Below, one piece after another: positions 14,151 to 30,662 of a stretch of 64,000 nucleotides of DNA. The position numbers and the translations under genes were made by a program. This DNA is from Microcyclospora pomicola. Its lineage: Eukaryota; Ascomycota; Dothideomycetes; Capnodiales. The DNA is taken from contig NHNY01000021.1 of assembly GCA_002786065.1 (NCBI GenBank), positions 124,001 through 188,000 on the forward strand, read 5' to 3'. Within the stretch, counting starts at the first letter, position 1. The number at the start of each line of letters is the position of its first letter. Below the pieces are notes generated by a model. The model was not told the DNA's origin, made no database searches, and saw nothing but the letters and a program-made list of their open reading frames with translations.

Positions 14151-16909
14151 TGGATGGATCGCGTGAAGTGAATCTACACGCCCAGGTGGAAGAGCCGGGG
14201 CTCGGGATGGCGGGATGCTGCAAGGTCGCAGGAGCGCGTCGGATGGCTGACGTGTCTGAATTGACGCGCGATTTGAGAAAAATCCCGAGCGGTGTAGCAG
14301 AGAGAGTGGTGACTAGAGGCGTTGCGGTGCGTGAGAGAGATATATCTTTGTTTCCCTCAGATCTGAAGTGGAGAAGGTGTGTTAGCCACTATGGTTGACA
14401 TCAAGGATACGTAGAGCATGGGGAGGTGCAGTGTATACATACTTTGCAAGGATCTCGCGGACGAGGATTCGACGGATGGCAGGACCGTGATGATCGTCGT
14501 CTTATCGTTGTGGAGGTGCAGAGTCGACTAACTTAGTGGTCAGGGTGGAAGAGGGTTTGGTGATAGGCAATCAATGGCCAATGGCTCGGGATTTGCAGGG
14601 CGGGAGTGCAGTCAGAGAGATGAGAGCGATTGAGGGGTGTGCTGTAAGAAGAGATGGAATGGAAGGAAAGAAGATGCAGATGGACAGCAAGAACCAAGAA
14701 GCAGAGCCGAATGATGGTGGAAACCGACTCATCGGCGGTAGTGGAGCAAGAATGATGATACGGAGAAGACGCCATCCTACCAACTCGTCACGTCGACGAC
14801 GACGATAGCAGCACACTCACGCAGGCAGCGGCCATGCTCGGCTTTACCGCCCCCAGCAGCGCGAACCCGTGGGCATGGAACAGAGGGAAGCAGTGCAGTA
14901 GTAACGTACAGCAACAGCAGAAGAAATGTGGATCACCACGCCCCGGTGGAGCCCACAACCCACGACGCCTCCCGTGTCCACGACGCGACTCGAGTTGGGC
15001 GAGCATCGACGCAGAATCTGACACCGATTCTCGTCGAGTAATGAATAAAGACAGACGCGGATCGAGGCCACGGCGCTCCGCCAACCAGACGCGCACACCG
15101 TCGAGTCCCACCGCAGTTCTCCATCACGGTTGGTCCGACAGGGGCAGATCGCCTCCGCGTTCCCATCAGCAGTAGTAGCGACCCCGTCGACGCCGTCGAG
15201 AAGGGTTTCGCATCAGGGCGATACAGTACAAACTGAACAGGGGTAATGCAGGAACAGAGTTGCTCAGTAGGGGAAGTTTGTTCGATTTTAGTAGTCGAGT
15301 AGCGTCAGGGTCAGGTCAGATGGCGAAAAGGCAGAAGTAGTGAGTAACCTTAGGTACATATGGTTCGAAACGATAGCAGAGTTAAGCCGAGACGCAGTTG
15401 GGTTTTGCTTAGCATCAACTATGAAGAGATGGAAAAATCCGATAAGGTGAGGTGTCTTGTCTCTCATCCTTCGTGGCGGGGACCTCGAGGCCTGCTTGCG
15501 TGCTCGGCCGGCATCCGATATCGCCGATCCTCCACATCACAAACTCTACCTTGAGGTAGGTACCAATAAAAAAATGTTTCGAAAGTGAAGAGATCAAGCC
15601 TCCTACCTATCCTATCCACATGCCCGAACAACTGGCATCCCATCACTACAGCATCCAACCCGTACTGTAAACAGCCTCCCTTCCAATCCCAGCCTCTACC
15701 TCTACAGTGCCTGCACATCATCTTCTTTCCACAGCCCCGATCCCGATTGGTCCGTCCCGTTCCACGTGTCGTCGTCGTCGTCGTCTCATGCATATCGTCA
15801 ACAGACATGTATCCATACCTAAGGTATTACTAACAACCCAGTACGTAAACCGCAATGCAGCGGAATGCTTAATAGCGTAGCGAGCTGTGACGAAACAAGT
15901 GTCGACCAGACTATACGTGTGCATCTGATAACGCAAGGGAGGCGCAGGGGGTTATTTTTGGTCGTTGGAGGGAGGAGATATAGTGGATTGATGACGACCG
16001 GGCGGAATGCTGCGTCATGGTGGGAGGGCCATGCCGTGGGTTGCCATCATTGGAAGGGAATATGCTTGAGTTGTGGAGAAGAGGGTACGTCTTTCTTGGG
16101 TGGAGCGGTGATGGAGCGACGGGGCGTTATGCGTGTCCGTGGTCGTGTACATGCTGTCATCTTCGGATCCACTTGGGGGACATGATGGATGTGGACATAC
16201 ATGTTGCAGATACATGGACTGCACACGCAGGAAAATATATCTTGAATGATTTAGGTAACTTGAGATGAAATTGAGAGACACTCAGTGTGATAATTGATTA
16301 ATGATTAGATATTATGTATCCTGCCATCCTCAACAGGGACCTCAAGGCAGGCTATTTTGAAAGCATGCCAGTAGCATGAAAACTCGCTTGGCAATATTAA
16401 GCATACAAACCCTCCTCCATCAATGTTCCGGCGATGCCATTGCTTTGAAACAGCTGGTCACTCATAGTGTGTGAGGAACAGCAAGCAAGCAAGCAAGCAA
16501 GCGACCAAGGCTCCATGGTCCTGGGCCTGATGATGTCGTCGACGAGCAGTACATGGCCCTTCTTCCGACGCATGATGATGCTGATGTCGATATGGGCACC
16601 CCCCAAGCAAAGCTGATGGGGTGATTGCCTTGCTTGCATTCTGATGACGAGAGCTGGGGTGGGTGCTGACGTCTCCGTTTGCTGGGAGAGATTGCTCAAT
16701 GAAGTCCATTCTCCATGTCCGTCTCCAAAGCACATCTTCTTCAGGTTGTCATGCCAATCTGCCCGAGTCGATCAATCGTCGGTCGAGCTGCTTTCACCAT
16801 GCCGCTGCATCGGCAAACCGTCCTGCTATTCCATATTTCAGACAGTAACAAGTCTCTCCCCAAACGATGCAATGTAATTCAATCGCTAGCATCCCCCACT
16901 CACGCCCCT
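14151..16909. other. Long intergenic region
   Basis: 2.76 kb upstream of the Ecl1-like gene and downstream of the small gene at 16910. Open frames are short and not coding-like. There is an (AAGC)n run at about 16482-16502 and pyrimidine-rich tracts. It may include a long 5' leader or regulatory region for the Ecl1-like gene. No RNA gene is recognised. Confidence 0.4.
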
Positions 16910-17161: not shown

Positions 17162-18904
17162 GGTTGGTGTTGGTGGTGAATGTTTGTTTGGTGTGTGATG
17201 TGTGTTCTGTTGTAGTTGATCTCTTGTTTTAGTAAGGTAGAGTAGAGATTCGAGTTATAGCAGAGGTCTTGGTTCATAGGTAGGTATTTCTAATCAATCA
17301 CCATCCACATCCAAGGGGGCCACAGTCTGAACTATATATCCAGCTCCCAAAATATCTCCATGCCCTTAAGCCCGCCCCGGCCGTGCAACACGCCCGCAAC
17401 TCCACCTTGACTCACTTTCCACGCAAGCCAGGCCATCATCGTCATCGGAACTCGCGGCACTCGCGCGGTCCAGCTCTCCACCGTGGCTGACTCAACCGTT
17501 GTTGACGTGTCCAATCACACGCCATTCCTCTACACTCTGGCCGAGCACCCGATCGGTAGCAAGGCCTTGATTGGAAGGCCGCGATAAGAGATCGCCCTTC
17601 CTCATACCGAGACCGGGCAATGGGCTTTACGGCGATTGGGAATCGCGGTCCGGGCTTTGTCTGGCGGGGCCTACTCGTGTGCGTCGTCTGCTAAAGTCCG
17701 AGTGTACTACTGTACCGTCACGATAGAGGGCGGAGGGACGATCGAGGATGAGGATCGCATGCACGCACGGCCATGCGACTCCTGAAGCTCGGCCGAGCAC
17801 TCGAACTCGCTTCTAGAATGACTTGGCAGGCATGGCAGAGCGTGGCAGACCTGGAGAAGGGCGGGGTGAGATGGTAAAAGCAGGAATGTAGGGCTTGGAA
17901 TATGCTTGGCTCGCGAGCTGCTATTACTGTATCATCGTGAATGTGCATCGATCAGGAGGTGTGGAGGAGGCATAGGGCTCGATCGCGAGGACACTGTGGC
18001 ACTTTGACGTGCAGGTGATTTGTGCTCGCAGGGTCATGTCTCCATCTGAAGTCATCGTTCTATACCGCAAGCTGAAGACATGATCTGGTCATTCCACAGT
18101 GCAGAGATCGTGCCATGCCGTCTAGCATTCGAGTACTACAATAGTGGCAGAGATAAGCACAGGATCGTGGACGGCAAGCCAAGTCCTCCGTTCGCACGTG
18201 GCCAAGACGCTGGTGTGACCGCCTGACATGCTCTGGAGCTCCATCGATTCACCAGAGATATCAACCGCCGGGAATCGAAGCAGAGGTCTGGTACTGCTCA
18301 TGAGGAGTATCGAGATGTGGCGCGCGAAGGCGCATCCCCGAAGCATTACCGCAGACACCTTGCTGCACAGTCTCAGTAAAGCTGTATCTTTGCCCATGCC
18401 GGAGATGACGCCTGAAAGCCATCACGTATGCGCATAACGATCGCTACATGTGCAGTGTTGTCTTGCCTGAAAGGTCTTATCCCTAGTATGTTCTCTGCGA
18501 AGTCTTGTGCTATACGGCCGCTTGCTTCTGGATATACATGCTGCTTGAGACATGCATCCCGGTCAGATGTTGAATAAATCTTGGTGGACTCCATCCCACA
18601 TAGCAGCTCGTCCTAGGTTAGATAGACATCGCCTGACTATACGATTCAGATTCGCACTTGAGACTTGTGCTGGGGATCGGGCCATTCAGGCAGGACACTA
18701 CTAGAGCGATGGACTGTCGATACCTACATTTCTGTGATGCGCTGATCGAACGAAGCGTATAATATGTTTATTGCCGAATGAATTCTTACCTGAAGTAAAT
18801 CTTAGGTTGCCTTACCTTCCCTTCCATGCCTGCGATGTCATGCAGAGCGGGGCCAGCGGCAAAGCGGCAAGCGCCCGGCTAGACCTCAGCCCGCAGGATA
18901 ATTT
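17162..18904. other. Intergenic region left of the accessory island
   Basis: About 1.7 kb with only short, non-coding-like frames. It holds the promoter of the small gene at 16910-17161 and otherwise nothing recognisable. GTCGAG motifs are at background level here. Confidence 0.4.
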
Positions 18905-18940
18905 TTGTGAAGTTTTATATACAACCAAAACTTTTGCTGA

Positions 18941-19208
18941 CCATTCAAGTGATCACAATCATTGGTACCAAAACGTATGGCTTTAGTCAAAAGAAAAAAA
19001 AAGAACGAATTGAGCTATAATATGCCTTTTCATGTAGGAATAGCCGAAGGCGAGGCTCGAACTCTGCGACGGAGATCAGTACCAGGCACTGACGCAGTCG
19101 AACGCGGGGCATGACTTACCGCGACCTTGAGGTTGTCTCTATAAGAGCCACACGCTCTACCGATTGAGCTACCCCGGCAGGTACCAGTGATTGTGGTCAC
19201 TTGAATGG
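18941..19208. repeat. Inverted repeat enclosing a tRNA-like gene
   Basis: Arms 18941-18969 and 19180-19208 are 29 bp each and match at 27 of 29 positions; both differences are transitions. Weaker similarity extends outward to about 18905 and 19245. The arms enclose a minus-strand tRNA-Lys-like sequence and a T-rich run beside it. The structure resembles a small non-autonomous inverted-repeat element or the end of a larger one. No target duplication was identified. Confidence 0.7.
19042..19178 (-). tRNA. tRNA-Lys(CTT)-like gene with T-arm insertion (probable pseudogene)
   Basis: The 5' acceptor strand GCCGGGG pairs (two G-U) with 3' CTTCGGC. The D-arm GCTC...GAGC and anticodon stem TGTGG with loop CTCTTA are intact, giving anticodon CTT (Lys). 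An intron of about 8 bp after position 37 is likely. After AAGGTCGCG about 52 bp is inserted before AGTTCGAGCCTCGC, splitting the 5' side of the T-stem. The insert is flanked by GTCGC on both sides. That is not a known place for a nuclear tRNA intron, so this copy is probably not functional. A T-rich tract downstream could be a Pol III terminator. Confidence 0.55.
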
Positions 19209-19245
19209 CGAGCCAAAATTTCGATCGTATATATTGCTATTTACC

Positions 19246-20143
19246 AAATGCCCTTCTCTGCATGACATCGCAGCTGCAAGACCTCGACCTTTCGTTACAG
19301 AATTTTGTTACGAGACTGGAGCTCTAATAACTCGAGTGTCCTTGTTTCGCACGCTGCTACGAAAGCGCACGATCGAATGTGATGAACAAGAGGGAGATTG
19401 ATCCGATGGCTACGCAAGGGTCGAGGTCGCTTTCCGCTCTCGATATTATGATTACATGCAAGTCGACTTCAAGTCCGATGCATTTCACGAAACGGCCGAC
19501 ACTGGCGGGGCTTCTGGTTGGCAAGGACAGAGAACCTTTGGCAGCGTGATACGATCAAGGGCTGGGTCGAGGTAGGGCAGCCTGTCTGAGAAGGGGGGGC
19601 CGTAAAAGTGCGCACACCTCACCCGCGATACATCGCTCGTGGTTCTTCAATGTGAACTGTATGCATATCTTATACCTGTGATCGTGAGGAGCGTAACGGA
19701 GGTCGAGGTCCGCGCTGGAACGCTCACGTCTGGGCGGATGTAAGAATTTGATACTTTGGCTTGGTCTATCAAGAATGTCACTTCGAAGCAGGATGGCAGC
19801 AGGGTTTGGAACGTCAGTCGATATGAATGCGTCGCAAGCATGTAAGCAGTCACCAGACGGTCGAGGTCATCATGAGAGCATTGATGTGTGATATCAGCCA
19901 CGTTATATTCTTGCCAGAATTGGCGTCGAAGAAGGGGTAGGTAGGTAAGCTATAAAACCTAAAAACACTCAATTCATAGCGCCTTTCTGGAGATGTCCTT
20001 CGCACGGTCGAGGAACGCAGATATCCCATCTCTGCACGGCCATGATCGAGCAGTTGTGAGGCGAATAAGCAAAGGGTAACCCACACCCACGCAGTCGATA
20101 CATCGCTGCAAAGGTCGGTACAGGCGTCGAGGTGCTGATCAGC
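19246..20143. other. Non-coding left flank of the island
   Basis: About 0.9 kb with no supported gene, between the tRNA structure and the 3' end of the recombinase gene. GTCGAG motifs start at 19420 and follow at 19566, 19702, 19860, 20007 and 20126, a near-regular spacing of roughly 120-160 bp. Confidence 0.5.
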
Positions 20144-22514
20144 TCAGATGTGCTCGCTGTGCTCGGACTGACAGTGCTTGTAGAACACCGACTTCACAAC
20201 TTGCGTGTCGCACACCGGACATTGAAGCTTGCCGTCGATGGCAACGTTGCCGGAGGCCCGGATGAGCTCCTGGCGTCGAGTGTGGAAAGTGCCCTTCATA
20301 TGACGGTCGAGCTTGGATTTGGTATAAGGATTTGCCTTCTGGCTGTCAGTGACAGTCGGGTCGAGGGCGCACAGAACACAGCGCAAATTGCTGTTAGGCA
20401 CAGACATCAACATCGCGAAACTCCTCATGAATTGCATCCGGCCATCAGCCGTCGCTTCGCCGTCGCCATCACCGTCGGGTTGAACAGTAACTTCATCGCT
20501 GAGGCGCTGCCAGTGCTCCGGCTCCTCACGCGTGCCGTCGAGTGCTTCGTCTACAGCCCTCTGGTCGAGGACATCCTCATGCTCATCCTGGTCCTCATCC
20601 GATTTGCCATTGTCTGTGGTGACGAGACTGTCGAGCTGAGCCGCCTCTGCGGCGAAGTTGGTCTGCTGGGTGTCGAGGTTGGTGGTGTTGCGAAGCATAC
20701 TCGGCTCACGACCGATTGAGCCAGCCGTGAGTTTTGCACGCTTCGTTGTCAGCTTGACGTTCTTCGCGTGCTCGGCAAGCATTTGAGCTTTCTGCTCCAT
20801 CCTATGCTGGTGGAGGAGAGACTTTCGAAGAGTCTTACGACGCCTGAGTATATCGTCGAGTTTGTGTATTGCCTCGAAATGCTCTTCCTCCTTCAACATT
20901 TTGCGGCATCGAGCAAATGTACCTGGCAAGCTGTCGAAGGGCTGAATGTCAAGTAGAGTTGCTGCATCTATCAAGCAATTGTTAAGCTCCTGCTCCATGC
21001 CGATGTAATGCTCATCCGCCTCCATAGCGTTCGTCGCTCGCTGGTCGAGGATGTTCTGTAGCGATACTGTGTCTGGGCCAGGGTTGACCACACGGCTGTG
21101 CACGGTCTGGGCGAAAGCTCGGCGAATTGTGGCGCGTTCTTCTTCCGGCTCTCCCAAACGAAAGGCAGTTACGTCGAAGTCAGCCATGCCCTCGACATCG
21201 TACGAGACGATGGAGTGCGAGCTCTGTGCATGCCCGGCGATCTCCTTCGCAGTCTCAGTTCCGGCCTTCCGTCGAGACTCAATGATCGCAGTACGGCGAA
21301 GTGAATAGACTGTGTTATGCGCGAACAAACCGACTGATTCGCACATTTGATGAAGCTTCAGGTTGAGTGACATCTCTTTCATCGGCAGGTCGACTTCTAG
21401 AACGCCACTTTGGCTGCAAGCAACGAAAACTGGAAGTTTGTCGACTGCAGCGACTTTCGGGACGTAGACTTTGTCGAGATCGGACGCATACAGTTCCTCT
21501 AGCGTGTTGTATGGGAACAAGCCACGAGAAAATGCTAGAGCTGTCAACACAGCCGAGAGATCGAACTCGTAACGCTCACCGCGAGTGGGTAAAAAAGTGA
21601 ACGTTTTCTTTCCTGGAATTGGCCTCGACGTGTAAGGATTGCGGGCCATCTTCAAATACCTGAAGGTAACACGGACAGCGATACCAGGATGCTCAGGCAT
21701 ACGGAAGAAGACCACATCGAGCCAGCGTAGAGTTTCGTCCTGAGCTCTGGTCAAGCCACTGGCGCCGAGATCCGCGCCTGTCTCGTACCCAGGACATACT
21801 GTGAACGAACCAGGCCGGACACCAACAATGTAAACGAGCAACCACGCGGTGTAATGCTGCTTCCAGTTCTCTGCGCCCTGGTGGAACGTGAAGAGCTGGC
21901 GGTAGAACATACTGAGCTCAAGATCGGTGATGTTGTTCTTAGGTCGATGGCCAGTTTCTAGCGTGTGCTTGTGACCGAGCAGGTGGATGTGGGCTACTAT
22001 CTGTGCGTGCCAGGTCGAGAAGATGGTGTTGAAGTCAGGCATGAAACGAATCGCCCACCAGTATAGAGCGTGCTTATGTGCCCAGAGCACATCTGTGCGG
22101 ATTTTGTCTCCGATTGAACCTTTTCCTACGATGACCATGATCTCGAGGAATTCTTTCGTATGAAGGATAAATGTTTCGGAATTCCAGATGGCCTCAATGC
22201 TAGAAACACATCTTCACGTCAGCGACTTCTTGGTCTCAAATGTGGTCCTTCCAGGGAGAACCCGGTCGAGGTTGATCCTCTTACCCATCTTTTTGGTACA
22301 CGTCTTGTACGAAGGCTTCAAACACAGAGCGAGTGTGCGCTCGCACCTTGCGAGTGCTGGGCGCGTCCGCGTCGAAGAACGTCGAGGCGTCCGCATTCTC
22401 ACGCAATTTCGTCAACAGGTCCCGGTCTTTCGCAAGCTTCGAAAGCTGTGCTGAAAACTTGGTAGTCGGTTTCTTTGCAGGCGGAGCTTTCGACAGGTCG
22501 AGGGGCTGCGCCAT
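20144..22514 (-). CDS. DUF3435-type tyrosine recombinase with C-terminal zinc fingers (captain-like)
   Basis: Two exons, 22514-22285 and 22199-20144, give 761 residues. The 85-bp intron (GTAAGA...TAG) restores YQKDG-IEAIWNSETF. The N-terminal region (STRKVRAHTRSVFEAF) is the SAM-like, DNA-binding start typical of the family. Catalytic positions fit a tyrosine recombinase: Arg205 in VGVRPGS, Arg378 or Arg379 in VYSLRRTAI, His400 in EIAGHAQSS and Tyr410 in IVSYDV. The C-terminus has two C2H2-like fingers: CVLC with a distal HMKGTFH (about 680-710), and CPVC...HCQSEH (about 736-757). DUF3435/FluG-related recombinases mobilise Starship elements of fungi. The gene reads toward the left edge of the island. 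All catalytic residues and an open frame suggest it could be active. Assignment is by motif, not search. Confidence 0.8.
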
Positions 22515-22936
22515 TGCGATGGTCGCGTTGTGTTTGTATGTGATCCGAACCTGGCGTGAGCAGGCGGTGGTCGAGGAGTTGTGAAAATACGCGACTGACC
22601 AGGAAAATGGCATGTGGGCTTGGCAGCAGTTTCTGTATTTCGCACACAGCCCCTGATCAACGCCACCGCAGGAATGCTTTGAAGTGCTTCAGCAAACAAC
22701 CAACGTCGATCTTGCACACGGTCTCATCGGTTCCTTGCCTCGCCTCGACGGTTTGCTCCTTTGACGAGCATCGTAGGCGAACCATCTTTGAGCATTCTCT
22801 CATAGAGGTATGTCAAGCACCTCAGTCGAGGTTGATGTCCTGCTTCACGTCGACAGGATCCTGCTACCACTCAAGAAACTAATTTGACGTGCAGCCAGGA
22901 AACAAATTCAGCCCGCTACACTCAGTCTTGTCGATA
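22515..22936. promoter_or_regulatory. Divergent promoter region inside the island
   Basis: 422 bp between the start codons of the recombinase (minus) and the SAP-like protein (plus); the two genes probably share it. It contains GTCGAG motifs at 22570 and about 22825. Confidence 0.5.
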
Positions 22937-24589
22937 ATGGCGCTCGATCATGATATCCAGGCTATGGGGAAGGGCGAGGTGCAGCGCGCCATTCGCGCGT
23001 TCAAGGCGGCGAACCGTGGCATCAAGCTCAACGTGTCTGGCAACCTCCCAGAATTGCGAGAGAGTCTTCAACAGGCTCGAAATAGACTTAACGCTTCACC
23101 AGCAGGTCCAAGCGATGTTCCGGCGGCTCACCGCTTGTCCATGTCGAGGGCGTCGGTGGCTCCATCTACAACAGCTGCCTCTACGACTGCAAGCACCAGT
23201 GCTCCGCAGCCACAAGAAGGCGAGACAGCCGCGGGCCCTGCGAGCTTGATGCTCATTCAAGAGATGTTGCACCCCTTGACTGTGTCGTGCCTGGCCAAGT
23301 TGAACAACTTCGAGGTCGAGGGGGGGCTGTTGGATGAAGAGGTGGACGGCAGGTTGATGCAGGATCAAAATGAGATCGACCGACAGCAGCCCATGCTACA
23401 GTCGATCGTGAGGCTAGTCAATGTGCTTGTCGATATCATGGACGACATGCCCGACATCAGCAGTTCACCATCACTGAACTTCGGCACAGTTTGCAAGATC
23501 ATGCGCAACCGTGTTCACGGAGCTGCTGCACCAGAAGCTGCACAGCCCATCTTCGCAGCCTTCGGGGTCGAGGTGACCGTGACTCCAACGCCTGTCATGG
23601 TCCCTTCGGTCGAGGAGCAGGACTCACAAGATCTCGCCGAAGCCTTTGAAGCGTCGATAGACAGTTTCCAGGCAGACGTGCAGAGACGCTACCAAATGGA
23701 CCTGGCAGAGTCGTCCCCCGCCCCAGTCTCCCGCCCATCGTCACGCGGTCGCGACGAAGAGGATGTCACTATCATGCCGTCGAGGGCCTCTTCCCCGCCA
23801 CACAGCCCGGCGCCGGAGTCGATAAAGGAGGTCGAAGAAGTCGAGGCCGTTCACGACATAGGCTTCACACATCAGGTCGCGATCATACAGCAGAGCATTC
23901 GCTTCGCCCTTCGCAGATGGATGCGCACCTTCCCGTCTCCCGACAAAAAACAATGGCCGCAGGACTTCGAGCAAGAAGAGCAAGTGTCCATCCGCAAAGC
24001 CATTCGCGATTATGTCGAGGATAAGTCGCACGGGGTCGATGTGTCGTTGCATCAACAACCCACGAAGAAGACAGCAGAGGTGGTCGAGGCTCTACTTGCC
24101 ATGAAGAATTTTCCTGTCGCTGAAGCCAAAGATACTGCAGTTCTAGGTACAGCCTTTCGCGTGGTGTGCTTCGAGCTGTACCGACAGAGTCTGCGCGCGA
24201 GCGTTGCGGCGCAAGAGGGGCTGGGTCGAGGGGAGGATGATGCGCCACGCATGAGCAAGTCGGCTGGGAAGAAGCGTCAACTTGACACTGCCGAAGAGAC
24301 CACCGGTCGTGGAATCAAGAGGACGCGGTCGAGACGTGGCGGTGAAGCAGTCGAGGCCCTACCATATGGGTACCACGGGACTGAGTGCGCGCTGTGCTTC
24401 TTCCAGGACCATCCATGTTCTCTCAGGGAGCGCGATGGGGGCAGACTCTGCACTTCGTGTTTCAGCACTAACGACTTGTGTCGAGTTCTGTGCAGCGACT
24501 GTCGTCTGATCGCCGAGGCAGCCGGTCGAGGTACTGGCCTTTCTGGGTTTCTGGCCAACGACTGCGAGGTGTGCGACTTTCGATCTTGA
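22937..24589 (+). CDS. Island protein: SAP-like N-terminus, Cys-rich C-terminus
   Basis: Single exon of 550 residues from the ATG at 22937, the first methionine after a short leader. Residues about 8-50 (GEVQRAIRAFKAANRGIKLN, then GNLPELRESLQQA) resemble a SAP-type helix-turn-helix DNA-binding motif. The middle is long, acidic and Pro/Ser-rich. A basic KKRQ...GRGIKRTRSRRG stretch at about 465-485 looks like a nuclear signal. The C-terminus has regularly spaced cysteines (CALC, CTSC, CSDC, CEVC) that could form a zinc cluster of no family I recognise. It is divergent from the recombinase over a 422-bp region, as expected of a partner or regulator. Function unknown; a DNA-binding accessory protein is an inference. 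Confidence 0.7.
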   Translation: MALDHDIQAMGKGEVQRAIRAFKAANRGIKLNVSGNLPELRESLQQARNRLNASPAGPSDVPAAHRLSMSRASVAPSTTAASTTASTSAPQPQEGETAAGPASLMLIQEMLHPLTVSCLAKLNNFEVEGGLLDEEVDGRLMQDQNEIDRQQPMLQSIVRLVNVLVDIMDDMPDISSSPSLNFGTVCKIMRNRVHGAAAPEAAQPIFAAFGVEVTVTPTPVMVPSVEEQDSQDLAEAFEASIDSFQADVQRRYQMDLAESSPAPVSRPSSRGRDEEDVTIMPSRASSPPHSPAPESIKEVEEVEAVHDIGFTHQVAIIQQSIRFALRRWMRTFPSPDKKQWPQDFEQEEQVSIRKAIRDYVEDKSHGVDVSLHQQPTKKTAEVVEALLAMKNFPVAEAKDTAVLGTAFRVVCFELYRQSLRASVAAQEGLGRGEDDAPRMSKSAGKKRQLDTAEETTGRGIKRTRSRRGGEAVEALPYGYHGTECALCFFQDHPCSLRERDGGRLCTSCFSTNDLCRVLCSDCRLIAEAAGRGTGLSGFLANDCEVCDFRS

Positions 24590-25518
24590 AGCCATCTGCC
24601 GTTGTCATTTTGAAGATGCATGGCCCGCGTCACAGCTGGCATGAAGCCTGACAAAAATGTCATATCAAGAAGCCAAGCAGAAGCGTCGAGCTTTCGTCTG
24701 CTCATATCGGTCAAGGCTAAGCAAATGGGAGACTCCGGTCGAGAAAAGAATACTGGGCACGACATCAGTCTTTGTCTAGAGGTCCTGTGCGCTCTCTCAC
24801 CGTGCGACTGGTGTACAGTCAGGCCGTAGTGTTTGTAGTACTTCCCAACAATGTTGCTGTCGAGACACTTTCAATGCGGTCGAGGTTAGCGATGTGCACG
24901 AGGACAATTACATGTACTTCTACAAGGCCATAAGTCACGCCGACTGTTGCCATGCCATACAAAGTATATTTGACAGATATCCAAGGGGGCACGATGCTTT
25001 ATTTAGTAGTCTCAAAGTGATCAGCAATGTACACGGAAGAAATGAACAGCAGTCGAGGCAGCTCATCTCCCGCTTACCCACCCTCTATTGGATGGAGACA
25101 AGTCGTTCTAAGGTATTAGGAATAGTATGCGTAGGTGTGTACGTTTACCACGGCGAGCGCTCCGATTGAGGTCGAGGTGTCCGCCTTGTCATGTATCCTC
25201 GTCGGCTGCTCTTGTCCTCCCACGATCCCCGTAGCTGCGCCGATATTCGACTTCCGGCAATCTTGGTCGTCGAGATTGGAACGACGCACGTCGAGACGCC
25301 CGCAGTGCTGTGGGCCTTCTTGGGCTACTTGGGCAGGGTGCGAGTCGCGGACCGACATGGGAAGAGTCTATCGGCTCAGAGCACTGTAAAGAGCTCTGGT
25401 CTCGGAAAGTCGCCTCGCGTCGAGGATCTACATCTTGGATGTTCAAATGTTGCGAGTGCTACACAACCTAGAATCAAGCTCAGGTTAAACCTGTCGAGCT
25501 CGTCTGTCCTAGCTGTGG

Positions 25519-25620
25519 ACGTCTTGTCCAAAGCTTCGAACACGAAGCGCGCCAGGGTTCGCATCTTCCGAGTGCTTGATACGTCCGTGTCATAGAATGT
25601 CGAGGTGTTCGCATTTTTAC
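25519..25620 (-). pseudogene. Relic of a second captain N-terminal exon
   Basis: Aligns without gaps over about 100 bp to the first exon of the recombinase gene (22299-22405), at roughly three quarters identity. On the minus strand it still encodes STFYDTDVSSTRKMR and LARFVFEALDKT, against STFFDADAPSTRKVR and HTRSVFEAFVQD in the intact gene. Nothing recognisable of the rest of the gene is beside it. Confidence 0.7.
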
Positions 25621-25659
25621 AGTATCCAGCTACTCTTGATTAGGATCCTCTAGGACGAT

Positions 25660-25745
25660 GCAAGTTCCAAACACAGAACGACTGCGTGCCCGCACTATGC
25701 GGATGCTTGTAGCTTCTGTGCCCGACGTCGGCATGCTCGCCTCTG
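25660..25745 (-). pseudogene. Shorter relic related to the captain N-terminal exon
   Basis: The stretch starting TTCCAAACACAGAACGACTG resembles the same part of the recombinase exon (TTCAAACACAGAGCGAGTG), with similarity fading over about 55-80 bp. It lies just right of the first relic, suggesting repeated partial copies. Weaker than the first relic. Confidence 0.45.
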
Positions 25746-26217
25746 TTCCGTGGCTGCTGTCGAGGGAAATGTAATTTGGCAGATTCACTATGCAAGTCAG
25801 GGATGCTGGAGATGACAGGAAGGAACAGTAGTTCCGCATTAGATGGAAAGGAATGATTGATGAGTACAACTATGTAAAACTACGGACGGGGACTAGAGGG
25901 CCCACGTGACTATTTTAGTCACGTTCTGCGTAGAAAATTAATGCTGTCCCGAGTTGTAGTCCGCAGTCGAGGTCAGAGATCAAATGTTGGCCTTATGCCC
26001 GTCGTTATGCTTTTAATTTCATGCTGTCTGCATCCAATGCTTGGGGTGGAGATCTACTCCGTATGGTGGCGTTATGCCTGTCGTTATGCTCTTAGTAATA
26101 TGCCGTCAGTATGCAATATTCACGATGGCTCGCAGTCGAGGTCTTGGTCGAGAACACGGATGTTTTCGCAAGGTGCTGCAACTCGTGGGCAGTGCTGCCG
26201 CTTAGTTGCGGGACGAA

Positions 26218-27603
26218 TCATTCGTCGACGGGTGCAGCTTTCTTGCTTTTCTGTTTCTTGGTCTTGGGCGCGTCGAGACCAAGCGCGGATGCATCCTTCT
26301 TGACACGTTTGCGCTTAATCGGGGCGGTCGAGACAGCATTGCCTTTCGCTTGACTTTCGGTCCACAAATTGGATTCGACGGGGTCAGGCTTGTTTTCGCG
26401 AGCCTGTTTGCGGTCGAGGGCCGCCTGCTTCTTTTCTTGCGCCGTCATGAAGATCTGTGGGACTTTGGCGTTCACTAAGTCTGCGTCATGTACTATCTTG
26501 CCCAGGTCATTCTTGAGCTTCGTCATCATAGATGCTTTGGTCTTAGCCAGGTCATACGCCTTTTGGATCGTAACGAGGGCCTCGACACCAGACTCGGTCC
26601 TAGGTAAGACTTTCCCGTTGAATATCTTGGGCTTACGATTGTTGAGCACGTCATCGAAGGCTTTGTCGAGCAGGTTCTCGAGCCTTTTGGAAGTGCGCTT
26701 CGGGGCATGAGTGGCGTCGTAACCACGTTGCGCTTCGCGCGCGGCCGAGCGAGTAGAAGCGACATCGGTCGAGGTGCCATCGTCGCCAGCCGAAGGAGGG
26801 TTCTCCTTGCAAGGTTGATTCCATTCATAATCGGGCTCTTCCTTTAGTTCATCTTTGACGAGCACGCTAGCTTCCTGAACGTCGGTGCCCGCTTCGTCAT
26901 ACGAGGCAGAGCTGTCGAGGGGTACACGATTCTTTGTTTCCTCCTTACTGAGGTGATTGCCTGTGGCGCTATCGTCGTTCGCCATCATGCCTTTGTGCTC
27001 TTGCTTGCGAGTGGGATCAGTCGCTGTCTTGCGGCTTTGGTCGAGAAGCTTCAGCTGCGGCTCAACAGTGGCTTGTGTGGTTTCGTCGCGTATGGCTTTG
27101 GCCAGATATTTTTTGGCCGTGGTCGAACGACGAACCTCGTCCGGGGAAGCCAGGACGATCGCTTCGAGGACAGAAGCATTGAGCAGAAAACCAGAAATGT
27201 GATCGTCTTTCGCTTTTTCGTGCTCGGTCATGTCTGGCAACACTGTCGGCTCACTCTTGGCTGGCTGCGCGTCGAGGAACTTCGCCTTCTGTGGGTCTTT
27301 CACGACCCCACGGTCGAGACCGCTCTTTGTCACATCTTCCTTCATGGTAAACGCCGGCTCAATGTAGCCACCAACCTTCTGCTGAGTAGCCTCGACCGCC
27401 TGGACGACATGGCTCGCCAGGTCGAGGCTCGCGATCGAGATCTTCTGTGCGGCATTCATCCTTGGAGCGACGACAGGGGAGTGAACGTGCTTAGCCAGGT
27501 CGAGGCTGTCCAGTGTGGTATCAGTGATGTGCTGCTTGGCGTGTGGAGAGTCGATGAGAGAGTGGCTCTTCTCTTCCTGGGCTGGCATCGGATTGCTAGC
27601 CAT
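26218..27603 (-). CDS. Unknown island protein with C-terminal nuclear localisation signals
   Basis: Single exon of 461 residues. The ATG at 27603 has a good context (AAGATGG); the frame continues upstream to 27852, but that part is atypical and overlaps likely promoter. The protein is hydrophilic and Lys/Glu-rich with no membrane segment. Two repeated-looking blocks (LDSLDLAKHVHSP, IASLDLASHVVQA) lie near the N-terminus. A better conserved-looking region, SKRLENLLDKAFDDVLNN to KNDLGKIVHDADL, is at about 325-410. The C-terminus carries KRKRVKK and KTKKQKSKK, likely nuclear signals. Many GTCGAG motifs lie within the gene. Function not recognised; a chromatin- or DNA-associated role is only suggested by charge. 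Confidence 0.6.
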   Translation of the reverse strand: MASNPMPAQEEKSHSLIDSPHAKQHITDTTLDSLDLAKHVHSPVVAPRMNAAQKISIASLDLASHVVQAVEATQQKVGGYIEPAFTMKEDVTKSGLDRGVVKDPQKAKFLDAQPAKSEPTVLPDMTEHEKAKDDHISGFLLNASVLEAIVLASPDEVRRSTTAKKYLAKAIRDETTQATVEPQLKLLDQSRKTATDPTRKQEHKGMMANDDSATGNHLSKEETKNRVPLDSSASYDEAGTDVQEASVLVKDELKEEPDYEWNQPCKENPPSAGDDGTSTDVASTRSAAREAQRGYDATHAPKRTSKRLENLLDKAFDDVLNNRKPKIFNGKVLPRTESGVEALVTIQKAYDLAKTKASMMTKLKNDLGKIVHDADLVNAKVPQIFMTAQEKKQAALDRKQARENKPDPVESNLWTESQAKGNAVSTAPIKRKRVKKDASALGLDAPKTKKQKSKKAAPVDE

Positions 27604-27886
27604 CTTGACGTGGAATGGCAGACGTTTGCTGGATGGCTGCTGATGTTTGGTAAATGTCGTACCGGTGTATGTTGATGAAGAGAGAAAGGATGGAAGGAAA
27701 GTGAGGAAAGTAAATCCGCTCGAAGGAGGTCTTTCAGCTGATAGCCAAGTGAAAGAGCAAGTCCGTGCTGCAAGTGAAGGAACATGGATGCGCAACTGAA
27801 CAATACAGGCGGCGCAAGTGAAGGCGAAAAGTTGCGCGACTGAAGGAGCCACAGCTGCTTGAGTGAAGACCCAAGGAACGGTTTCC

Positions 27887-28042
27887 GGTCGAGACAGGTC
27901 ACCAAACCGTAGTAGCCAGCGTGCTCAACGCTGGCGCCGGTCGAGGCGACTCATCAAATCGTGGTAGCCAGCGTGCTCAGCGGTGGCGCCGGTCGAGACG
28001 ACTCACCAAATCGTAGTAGCAGGCGTGCTCAGTGGTGGCGAC
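27887..28042. repeat. Three tandem 52-bp repeats, each headed by GGTCGAG
   Basis: Units begin at 27887, 27939 and 27991, exactly 52 bp apart. Each starts with GGTCGAG, contains CACCAAA-C-GTAGTAGC and CGTGCTCA, and ends in GGTGGCGCC or a variant. Units differ by a few substitutions. The array lies about 280 bp upstream of the start codon of the 26218-27603 gene, a position where it could act as a regulatory or protein-binding array. Confidence 0.85.
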
Positions 28043-29127
28043 CAGTTCACCCGAAGATGCTCTGAGCTGCAGCAACCTTTCACTGCTGATCACCTGGAGC
28101 TTGGTGCTGTCTGTCGAGAAGTCGAGGTCAACACAGTGGCGTGCGGTCGAGATGGGCGGCTCGTTACAGCTTCACTGTCAAATCTCCTACGTCAACCAGA
28201 TTGTTGGGGCCCTGTAGACCAAGCGGGAATGGTCACAATCAAGATGCCGCGCCAATGGTCGAGGGAAGCTCTTCCGTTCATGTCTGCCGATGTTTCTTCG
28301 CACAGCACTGGTGAATCAGACGTGTCGAGATACTGGCCAGGTAACGACCAACGCTGTCAGTACCTCGTCGAGCTCTGCATCAAAGCAAAAGTAAGCTGGC
28401 AAGTGTATAGGCCATGAAAATGTTTCGTTTGCATCCAGACATGGTTTCGTGGGGCATGTTTCCGATCCCGCAGCAGTCTGGAATGATTTGCTCGTCCTGA
28501 CGGAATCTGTTTCATTTACTTGCGCATCAGAAACATTCCGGATGAGCGGTCGAGGGCTTCATGAAGAGCATCTGGATGAGTTTCGATCACCTCGACGACT
28601 CATGTATCTTGGAGAGGAGCTGTGAGTCAAGCGTCTCCTTCCGTCATCTGTCCGTCGTCTGGAAGTCAGACTACGAGTGATACATAACAATGCGAGGTCT
28701 TAGAGTAAAGTCATGTTGACCGAATGCTACAACATGGTCGAGGGACGTAACCCGCTTGCGATCCAACATCGATTTCCATGCTTGCCGGTGGGTACATTGG
28801 TCGACTACTGGGGTCGATTGCAAAAGGACAGGGCATCGCCGTGTCGAGGCTGGCGTTATATCTGGTGGTCTCGCCATGCCTTGCGTATTGAATCCTGTGA
28901 CCAAACCGGTACGGTTTCCTGAAAGCCAGTATGTTGGTCAAACACTACCCAGCATTGGTGACCCAACATTTTAATTGCTTCAAGGCCAGCTTGTACAATC
29001 ATCGGTCGAGGAACTGCACAAATTTCTTGGGTGTCATGACACTGGCATGTCGAGGCCGACAATGATGAGATGTAGAGGTGATCACTACGGGAGCATCGCT
29101 TGCTCTCCTCCCTGTCGAGGCCTTCAC
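28043..29127. other. Unresolved coding-like stretch in the island
   Basis: No complete gene could be built. On the plus strand a frame ending at 28625 (opening at 28440, with GFVGHVSDPAAVWNDLL) looks coding. A frame reaching 28390 ends at a GTAAGC donor, and a CATCCAG acceptor lies at 28438, but the phases do not agree. It may be a decayed small gene. Confidence 0.25.
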
Positions 29128-29779
29128 CTATCTAACCACCAGGCCTGCACATGTGGCACTGGTCCTTAAATGTTCTTGCGTCCTTGGATTGAGTTGTGTC
29201 GGGACGAGGTACGCGATGGATGGGCAAGATGGCGCATCGGTCGTGCCTTTGGTCGAGACGATGCTAGGTGATGCGGTCGAGATATTTCTGTCCAACGCTT
29301 CTTGCTTCCTGCGTACGGCTACCACCTGAGCGCAAATGTCGAGATCTCCCCGCCACCGATCACGACGCTCGCCAGACTCATGAGGGGAAAGATGGTTCTC
29401 GTCGAGGAAGCCCATGATCGTGGCGAGATCTTTGCTTAGAGTGACCACAGCGGCATGGCTATTCGATCGTGTCGTCGCAAGTGAAAACTGGGTCACTACC
29501 GTCGAGGAGCTATCGAGAGCCTGCGGGATTGGATCGGCCACTGTGTCGAGATGGGAGGAAATGATGTCGAGCTCGTGGGATACGGCGAGCATGAAACGGT
29601 TCGGCACGAGCGCATCAACTTCCCAGCCCGGTCTGTCGTTTGGTTGATACCTTTTAGAATACCTGACGGGTCGAGCTTGTGATGATTCTGTCCCAGCAGT
29701 CGAGCGTTTTACGGCACACCTCTGCTTCCGCTTTGCTCTTAGCCTTGTAAAGTCGATACCTTACCTTTCGTCTTGCCAT
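29128..29779 (-). CDS. Candidate small gene at the right end of the island (exon structure unclear)
   Basis: A minus-strand ATG at 29779 opens MARRKVRYRLYKAKSKAEAE and stays open for 40 codons. A second frame from about 29660 to 29128 encodes a helical protein (HELDIISSHLDTVADPIP, LATIMGFLDENHLSPHESG). The frames differ and would need an intron of about 90 bp or have shifted; I could not fix the splice sites. No family recognised. Confidence 0.3.
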
Positions 29780-30050
29780 GCCACACTTTCATCAGCCTTC
29801 GTCATGGGTGTCACACTTCTTGCGTCCCGGCATCAAATTTACTCCGGAAGTCAGATACCTGGAAATCACCTTCAGATTTATGATCCAAGCGGTGAGATAC
29901 ATAAGCTAAGGTACCTACATGTATATGTTGCTACACAAACTGCTTCGCAATCACCCGGCAGGATGACTTTGGTGACGCGACCTTACTTCGCAATCCCGAC
30001 GGCAGGAGGATATCCTTCGCTACGCGACTGCTTCGCAGTAAGATACCACG
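29780..30050. other. Right flank of the island
   Basis: No gene. It contains three copies of a CTTCGCA-type phrase (near 29944, 29986 and 30031) and adjoins the hairpin at 30051. The last GTCGAG motif is at 29699. Confidence 0.4.
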
Positions 30051-30121
30051 CCCTAGCCACAACTGACCTGAGCAACACCCTTCGGGTGTCGCTCAGGAGG
30101 TCAGTTGTCAGTTGGGCTAGG
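30051..30121. repeat. Long hairpin-forming inverted repeat
   Basis: The left arm CCCTAGCC-ACAACTGACC-TGAGC-ACACCC and right arm GGGTGT-CGCTCAGG-AGGTCAGTTGT-(CAGTT)-GGGCTAGG fold back on each other with only small bulges around a TTC-type loop at about 30081. It directly abuts the tRNA-Lys 3' fragment on its right, so it may be the terminal structure of the inserted element. Confidence 0.75.
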
Positions 30122-30154
30122 ACAAGGTCGCGAGTTCGAGCCTCGCCTTCGGCT
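30121..30154 (+). pseudogene. tRNA-Lys 3' fragment
   Basis: Contains the variable region and a perfect T-arm (GCGAG-TTCGAGC-CTCGC) followed by CTTCGGCT, the 3' half of the same tRNA-Lys as at 19042-19178. No 5' half precedes it. The flank TATTCCTACATGAAAGGCAT is shared with the left copy, so more than the tRNA itself was duplicated. Confidence 0.7.
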
Positions 30155-30662
30155 ATTCCTACATGAAAGGCATATTACAGCTCCATTCGACTTTTTTGGG
30201 CCATTCTTTTGATGTTGCAAGAAGTGGAAGCTGACCGGGAGGAGGGCATTCCCAGATGAAACGGTCGCAAGACTTTTGCTGCGGTGATATATGTAGAATC
30301 GACAACTCACCCTGCTCAGCGTCATCAATCATGCTGGACAGCGAGATCACTCTCCCTCCAGCTGGATCGTATAGAGAATGCGTCCCTTCAGCGTGCTTAC
30401 ATATGCATAAATAGTGGACTCGGATCTAGTAGTAGTGCTCCGCGTCTAACGTCAAGCTGTCCACTCTCTCAAGCCATTATTAACGACGACCCCATGTCTC
30501 AAGGACTACATATAGACCAGCACACATCTTCCACAATCTACCCAGCAAGCCCCTGACCAGAGCATCTACTCGTCACATAACAACCCAGCTTGCTATTAAC
30601 TGAGAAGATGATGTCCAAATAACCGGCCGATCCCCGGGCGAGAGCCCAATGCACTACCCCCC
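30155..30662. promoter_or_regulatory. Upstream region of pik1
   Basis: 508 bp between the island's right edge and the pik1 start codon. Its first approximately 35 bp match the 3' flank of the left tRNA copy. The remainder should hold the pik1 promoter; nothing specific is seen. Confidence 0.4.

Follow-up and report, generated by a model that had tools for sequence, protein, structure and literature searches.

An oriented hexamer fills coding and non-coding DNA of two islands in the genome of Microcyclospora pomicola and occurs together with an orphan gene family

The hexamer GTCGAG, almost entirely in one orientation, fills an island of approximately 10.3 kb in the genome of the fungus Microcyclospora pomicola, and it does so again in a second island, on another contig, which carries relatives of the same orphan gene, here called X. 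The first island lies at positions 19420-29705 of the stretch of 64,000 nucleotides that was analysed (C14:124001-188000; assembly GCA_002786065.1, genome of 23.37 Mb in 58 contigs). This stretch is referred to as the window, its island as the window island, and positions given without a contig are those of the window. The strongest statement to come from the analysis is that selection acts throughout both islands on one exact, oriented hexamer, to which gene family X is tied.

Density and polarity of the motif

An exact count gave 86 GTCGAG on the plus strand of the window island and 6 CTCGAC, confirming the estimates (about 85 and about 7) of a preliminary description of this DNA, together with the orientation bias that it reported. 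Genome-wide there are 11401 GTCGAG in the forward and 11125 in the reverse direction, approximately 0.48 per kb per strand, a rate at which about 5 would be expected in the island (Poisson log10 p of approximately -73 for 86 sites; binomial p 3e-19 for 86 of 92 in one orientation). Outside the island the window (53.7 kb) has 35 GTCGAG and 36 CTCGAC, and 290,394 bp of fetched non-island DNA hold 146 and 170; this background is not a random sample, being made up of the surroundings of the window, of the second island on contig C55 and of a region on contig C18, plus regions picked for a pattern match. Across its 302 windows of up to 10 kb the largest difference between the two orientations was 8 (4 versus 12, on C18), compared to 80 in each island, and when every hexamer was considered in 44 background windows the maximum z for skew was 4.0, compared to 8.3 for GTCGAG in the window island. 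The preliminary description had named similar density and bias in ordinary regions as what would overturn its claim, and the fetched non-island DNA has neither.

The base after GTCGAG in the window island is G at 51 and A at 22 of the 86 sites, so that GTCGAGR describes 73 of them, and the base before it is G at 42. The reverse word CTCGAC is not depleted there, and among the 18 one-letter variants of GTCGAG a clear skew was seen in GTCGAT only (13 versus 1). GTCGAT is polar in the C55 island too (7 versus 3) and is perhaps a weaker form of the site; a few other near-matches are mildly skewed in the C55 island (e.g. GTTGAG 6 versus 1 and GTCGTG 7 versus 2).

Sites in the window island are spaced more evenly than random (coefficient of variation 0.72, with 1 of 5000 random placements as low). 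The first six gaps at the left edge are all 119-158 bp, and permuting the gaps gave a value of 0.0002 for either edge having six gaps in the range 115-165 bp, in a test that was picked post hoc; a periodogram of the motif positions gave no clear period. To the left of the island, at 15033-15299, there are four forward GTCGAG within 267 bp, three of which make up one spaced-triplet match, and these are probably due to chance or codon use.

A second island on another contig

The preliminary description had proposed a search for other islands with the same peak, and this search found one, at C55 103,692-112,893, with 85 CTCGAC and 5 GTCGAG; as the surplus is of CTCGAC, the array on C55 faces the opposite way along its contig. 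It was located by scanning the genome with five spaced-triplet patterns. One of these, three GTCGAGR with 124-154 bases between them, had 19 matches in the genome (6 in the window island, 11 at 104-113 kb of C55 and 2 elsewhere), so that 17 of the 19 lie within the two islands, while its backward-read control had 4 matches. The share of matches falling inside the window island was 3/28, 0/37, 3/22, 6/19 and 0/11 for the five patterns, and since these are sparse the scan is not exhaustive, and a third island, if smaller or built on a different word, could have escaped it. Nine other regions were fetched as candidate motif clusters, leaving out those on C1 (1.53 Mb), C5, C13, C16, C20, C23 and C25, and one of the nine was an island; among the fetched candidate regions, the sole other motif island was also the sole other place with relatives of X.

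The motif is stricter in the C55 island, where 74 of 85 sites read GTCGAGG compared to 51 of 86 in the window island. Related copies account for 26 of the 85 C55 sites, and tandem repeats have therefore contributed to that array. No extended DNA similarity was found between the two islands (blastn gave one match of 24 bases), and no relative of the recombinase of the window island was found on C55.

The motif in coding DNA and the independence of its sites

The preliminary description had argued that codon use cannot explain the bias, and this held. Motif density in the window island is 7.1 per kb in minus-strand coding DNA (26 sites), 7.6 in plus-strand coding DNA (13) and 9.6 elsewhere (47). 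When synonymous codons were shuffled with the protein kept fixed, in the recombinase main exon, X and ORF2 (a second open reading frame, ORF, of the island), 10.1 sites were expected and 36 observed, and none of 5000 shuffles was as high; in three C55 genes 17, 17 and 12 sites were observed against 1.7, 3.1 and 1.6 expected. Codon use as the cause is thus ruled out by genes on both strands, by the spacers and by this shuffle. The choice can be seen in single codon pairs. For Leu-Asp the minus-strand genes of the window island use CTCGAC 12 times out of 15, compared to 10 times out of 33 for 14 background ORFs (Fisher p 0.0017), and for Val-Glu ORF2 uses GTCGAG 7 times out of 8, compared to 13 times out of 26 (p 0.067); the background ORFs are mechanical calls and hence putative genes. 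Within the recombinase gene the density is 2.4 per kb in the catalytic core versus 9.3 in the C-terminal part.

At 81 of the 86 window-island sites the flanks are unrelated, at the threshold applied, to those of any other site, which rules out tandem expansion as the main source in this island; the remaining 5 sites have related flanks, and apart from three tandem 52-bp units no tandem expansion of the motif was detected there. Repeat-induced point mutation (RIP) was rejected as a cause because two RIP indices in the island resemble those of its flanks. That the exact oriented word is under selection follows from the synonymous codon choice, the independent flanks and the spread through coding and non-coding DNA.

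Some viral contigs from IMG/VR (L119 and L151) carry dense, skewed GTCGAG (28 versus 5 in 4.5 kb, 14 versus 0 in 2.3 kb), probably as Val-Glu codons in co-oriented genes, and hexamer skew by itself is therefore no proof of a site. A scan of viral contigs for the motif pattern, in which counts only were compared, gave at least 120 stretches, with one holding two matches among the matches listed.

Gene family X

The protein encoded by X resembles two proteins of the C55 island (38% identity over 98 amino acids, E 1.6e-17, and 33% over 128 amino acids, E 1.9e-13, these E values coming from a small comparison set). A whole-genome search with X gave four matches, namely X itself, one C55 gene (E 5.7e-15) and, from the other C55 gene, two fragments (E 0.009 and 0.74), and thus no match to the family in the 23.4-Mb genome outside the two islands. 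The X genes of both islands read opposite to GTCGAG. The tail of X is basic, with Lys and Arg making up 25% of its last 75 residues. No homologue of X or of its conserved domain was seen among the matches listed by two protein searches limited to shared words, the first of which covered 7995 candidates. The third C55 gene of the codon shuffle (111797-113044, with 12 sites against 1.6 expected) has no established kinship to X.

The recombinase and other genes of the window island

The window island encodes a tyrosine recombinase of Cre-like fold that is kin to DUF3435 proteins (Table 1). Its product has the catalytic Arg, the H/YxxR element, the His and the nucleophilic Tyr of such enzymes, as well as their Cre-like fold, and R, YxxR, H and Y are invariant in the recombinase alignment. 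The 20 homologues include proteins of Oleoguttula, Saxophila, Recurvomyces and Baudoinia, fungi of the Dothideomycetes. DUF3435 was matched at E 0.1 or better by 10 of 16 family members, though not by the window protein itself, and weak zf-Di19 matches were seen in 8 of the 16 and in the window protein. A predicted GT-AG intron of 85 bases joins the first exon to the main exon with the frame kept. A sequence search of the PDB with the recombinase alignment gave zinc-finger matches only, and scanning viral and prokaryotic contigs with it gave no relative. LD/DL, ST/TS and VE/EV were counted in the 20 homologous proteins, with too much noise to tell whether their islands carry the motif. The sole other relative of the recombinase found in the genome lies in the region C18:10001-30000, with a telomere-like end of the contig (CCCTAA repeats) approximately 20 kb away, and this region has a mild surplus of CTCGAC (4 versus 12 in one 10-kb window). 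A motif tied to the recombinase alone was ruled out, since no relative of it was found in the C55 island.

An old, partial duplicate of the recombinase first exon is suggested by a fragment further to the right in the island, and the motif sites at 22381 (first exon) and 25599 (fragment) share 47 of 80 flanking bases.

Table 1. Features of the window island and its edges (window positions)
Feature	Position	Strand	Evidence
tRNA-Lys(CTT)-like gene, left edge	19042..19178	-	ARAGORN with introns allowed; second copy on C30
Array of 86 GTCGAG (GTCGAGR 73/86) with 6 CTCGAC	19420..29704	+	exact count, flank statistics, flank independence, genome background
Main exon of the tyrosine recombinase gene (its ORF is open from 22213)	20144..22199	-	homologues, catalytic residues, Cre-like fold; acceptor site read from sequence
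Predicted first exon of recombinase gene	22285..22514	-	sequence; similar N-termini in homologues P0005 and P0011
ORF2, 567 amino acids, Cys-rich C-terminus	22886..24589	+	ORF translation; only copy found in genome; 13 sites in frame-preserving codons
Fragment resembling recombinase first exon, old partial duplicate	25376..25639	-	ORF translation, flank likeness
Gene X, 461 amino acids, basic C-terminal tail, founder of the family common to the C55 island	26218..27603	-	protein comparison, genome search
Conserved domain of X, helical by low-confidence prediction	26383..26727	-	alignment of three X proteins; model pLDDT (predicted local distance difference test) 61.8
Three tandem 52-bp units, one site each	27885..28040	.	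repeat search, flank comparison
220-bp piece adjoining right edge, 85% identical to C30:49507-49722	29912..30131	+	sequence match
Truncated copy of tRNA 3' part and trailer, inverted versus left copy	30127..30197	+	repeat search, comparison with C30

Edges of the window island

The island is bordered on its left by a tRNA-Lys-like gene and on its right by an inverted, truncated copy of it, 37 bases of which are identical to the left copy. On C30 a near-complete match to the tRNA and a truncated copy lie approximately 300 bp apart, beside a piece like the 220-bp piece of the right edge. The default tRNA tool reported no tRNA here, and Rfam no family at gathering score. Both near-complete copies (19042-19178; C30:48007-51222) have an insert of approximately 56 bases in the T-stem, starting GTAAGT and ending AG. 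This insert is missing, precisely, from the truncated copies (right edge and C30) and resembles either a small intron of spliceosomal type or a small insertion; ARAGORN puts the intron elsewhere. The tRNA gene is flanked by two imperfect inverted repeats, at 18830-18970 and 19180-19273 (54 bp, 83%; 24 bp, 92%). Both copies of the 220-bp piece (30050-30117; C30:49507-49722) have kept several GCTTCGC words and a strong hairpin with a TTCG loop.

Discussion

The best explanation that we can offer, tentatively and with a likelihood a little short of even, is that the island is a selfish element in which approximately one GTCGAGR per 120 bp has accumulated under selection, in one orientation, as putative sites for a protein that the element itself encodes, most likely X. 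What is observed directly is that the motif is in excess, that it is polar, that codon choice carries it through coding DNA and that it accompanies X in a second island. From this it may be proposed that X would bind the identically oriented sites in the genes and spacers of the element, directionally or cooperatively, and that many copies of X, lined up head-to-tail, would coat the element along its full length. Such cover may alter chromatin or accessibility and so give anti-silencing or protection, as VANC does for VANDAL elements of Arabidopsis. The more specific proposal that the orphan family X assembles head-to-tail on the oriented sites and protects, segregates or drives the element, having arisen independently of plant VANC, is one that we consider doubtful.

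The preliminary description had suggested an element-encoded DNA-binding protein that marks, protects or mobilises the island. An element-linked DNA site under selection is well supported, while the zinc-finger or SAP-like proteins that it put forward as binders are not the best candidate, which is X. Mobilisation has become the weaker option because the C55 island keeps the motif and no recombinase relative was found there, and marking or protection would be the most likely of the three.

Several points weigh against X as the protein that coats the element. X has no recognisable DNA-binding domain: it matches no family in Pfam, the model of its conserved domain is weak and its fold matches in the PDB are not significant, so that no family can be read from them. 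X may accompany the motif for some different reason, and the islands number two only. For mobility there is neither an empty site nor a direct repeat of at least 11 bases between the island edges. Further, a coating protein has no obvious need for a single orientation, and as simple coating leaves this unexplained, readings built on a directional machine or on one strand stay alive.

A word strongly skewed to one orientation (86 versus 6 and 85 versus 5) is what a polar guide would need, that is, a motif like Chi or KOPS directing a machine, or a one-way fork or recombination block, for example on a circle that the recombinase has excised. Strict orientation over approximately 10 kb, across genes on both strands, would be most natural for something moving along DNA, and the recombinase of Cre-like fold could supply such a circle; we nevertheless regard this as unlikely, as the C55 array has been kept in an island where no relative of the recombinase was found, Chi and KOPS are much sparser than one site per 120 bp, and a literature search turned up no such eukaryotic system, which is no proof of absence. 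It would also be possible to dispense with a machine if the motif were read on one strand, as a GUCGAG or GTCGAG packaging, stability or processing signal of a transcript or single-stranded DNA intermediate, which accounts for a single orientation over genes on both strands; but the mRNAs of the recombinase and of X would bear the complement and it is not obvious what the regular gap of approximately 140 bp seen at the left edge would mean in RNA, making this improbable.

The reader of the motif might instead be ORF2 or the recombinase, both of which have Cys/His clusters of zinc-binding type (the ORF2 C-terminus; the weak zf-Di19 match towards the C-terminus of the recombinase), but no relative of either was detected in the C55 island although the core motif there is the same, and we think this quite unlikely. 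Highly improbable is an origin of the bias without any protein site, as a side effect of codon use, of tandem repeats or of some mutational process. The related copies among the C55 sites and the phage contigs whose skewed GTCGAG is probably due to Val-Glu codons are in line with such an origin, but codon use is excluded by the both-strand genes, spacers and shuffle, tandem origin is excluded for 81 of the 86 window-island sites, and a mutational process should yield skewed near-matches, of which the window island has a clear case in GTCGAT only.

A short word repeated in one direction through eukaryotic genes and spacers, at a cost in codon choice, implies strong and unseen selection on the DNA, and if a protein of the element reads the motif this would be a clean test case for the way in which selfish DNA recognises its own full extent. 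That the motif is paired with the orphan gene X makes the explanation directly testable, the motif-bearing probe sequence being GGTCGAGG.

Among known systems, Chi, KOPS and other polar bacterial words are likewise short, non-palindromic and in one orientation over long stretches of DNA, but they are spread much more thinly over whole chromosomes and are recognised by enzymes of bacteria, whereas the fungal motif is confined to two eukaryotic islands of approximately 10 kb. The captains of Starship elements are DUF3435 tyrosine recombinases, and the recombinase of the window island is of a family that partly matches DUF3435, with no match of its own at E 0.1. The motif island, at approximately 10.3 kb, is below the length range of 15-700 kb given for Starships in the part of PMC12134995 consulted, although it is the motif island and not the element that was measured, and the recombinase gene lies near the left edge and reads outward, towards that nearer edge, where a Starship has its captain as first gene, at the 5' end. 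Starships have flanking direct repeats of 2-12 bp according to the portion of PMC12153272 consulted, compared to no direct repeat of at least 11 bases between the edges here, and the parts consulted of three descriptions of Starships (PMC12134995, PMC11623301, PMC12153272) make no mention of an element-wide motif.

There is also a likeness to the VANDAL elements of Arabidopsis, of the MULE type, in which, from the sections consulted of PMC5735166, a short non-palindromic motif is dense, in one orientation and largely confined to the element, and VANC proteins with conserved parts and repeat-bearing variable parts are encoded by the element itself. The fungal islands have such a short, dense, one-way motif. 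The VANC21 motifs, however, are described in the same sections as lying mainly in non-coding regions and as having grown by tandem repeats (PMC5735166), whereas the fungal motif saturates coding DNA too (7.1 and 7.6 per kb versus 9.6 elsewhere) and has independent sites at 81 of 86 positions in the window island, the C55 island being partly alike in that 26 of its 85 are related. The linked mobile gene is a tyrosine recombinase and not a MULE transposase, and X has no Pfam match, nor a homologue in the two protein searches limited to shared words. As two features of VANDAL that were tested were not found in the window, we do not file the fungal system as a member of VANC/VANDAL; should a protein of the element read the motif, the anti-silencing arrays of plants would have a counterpart in a fungus that is independent of them.

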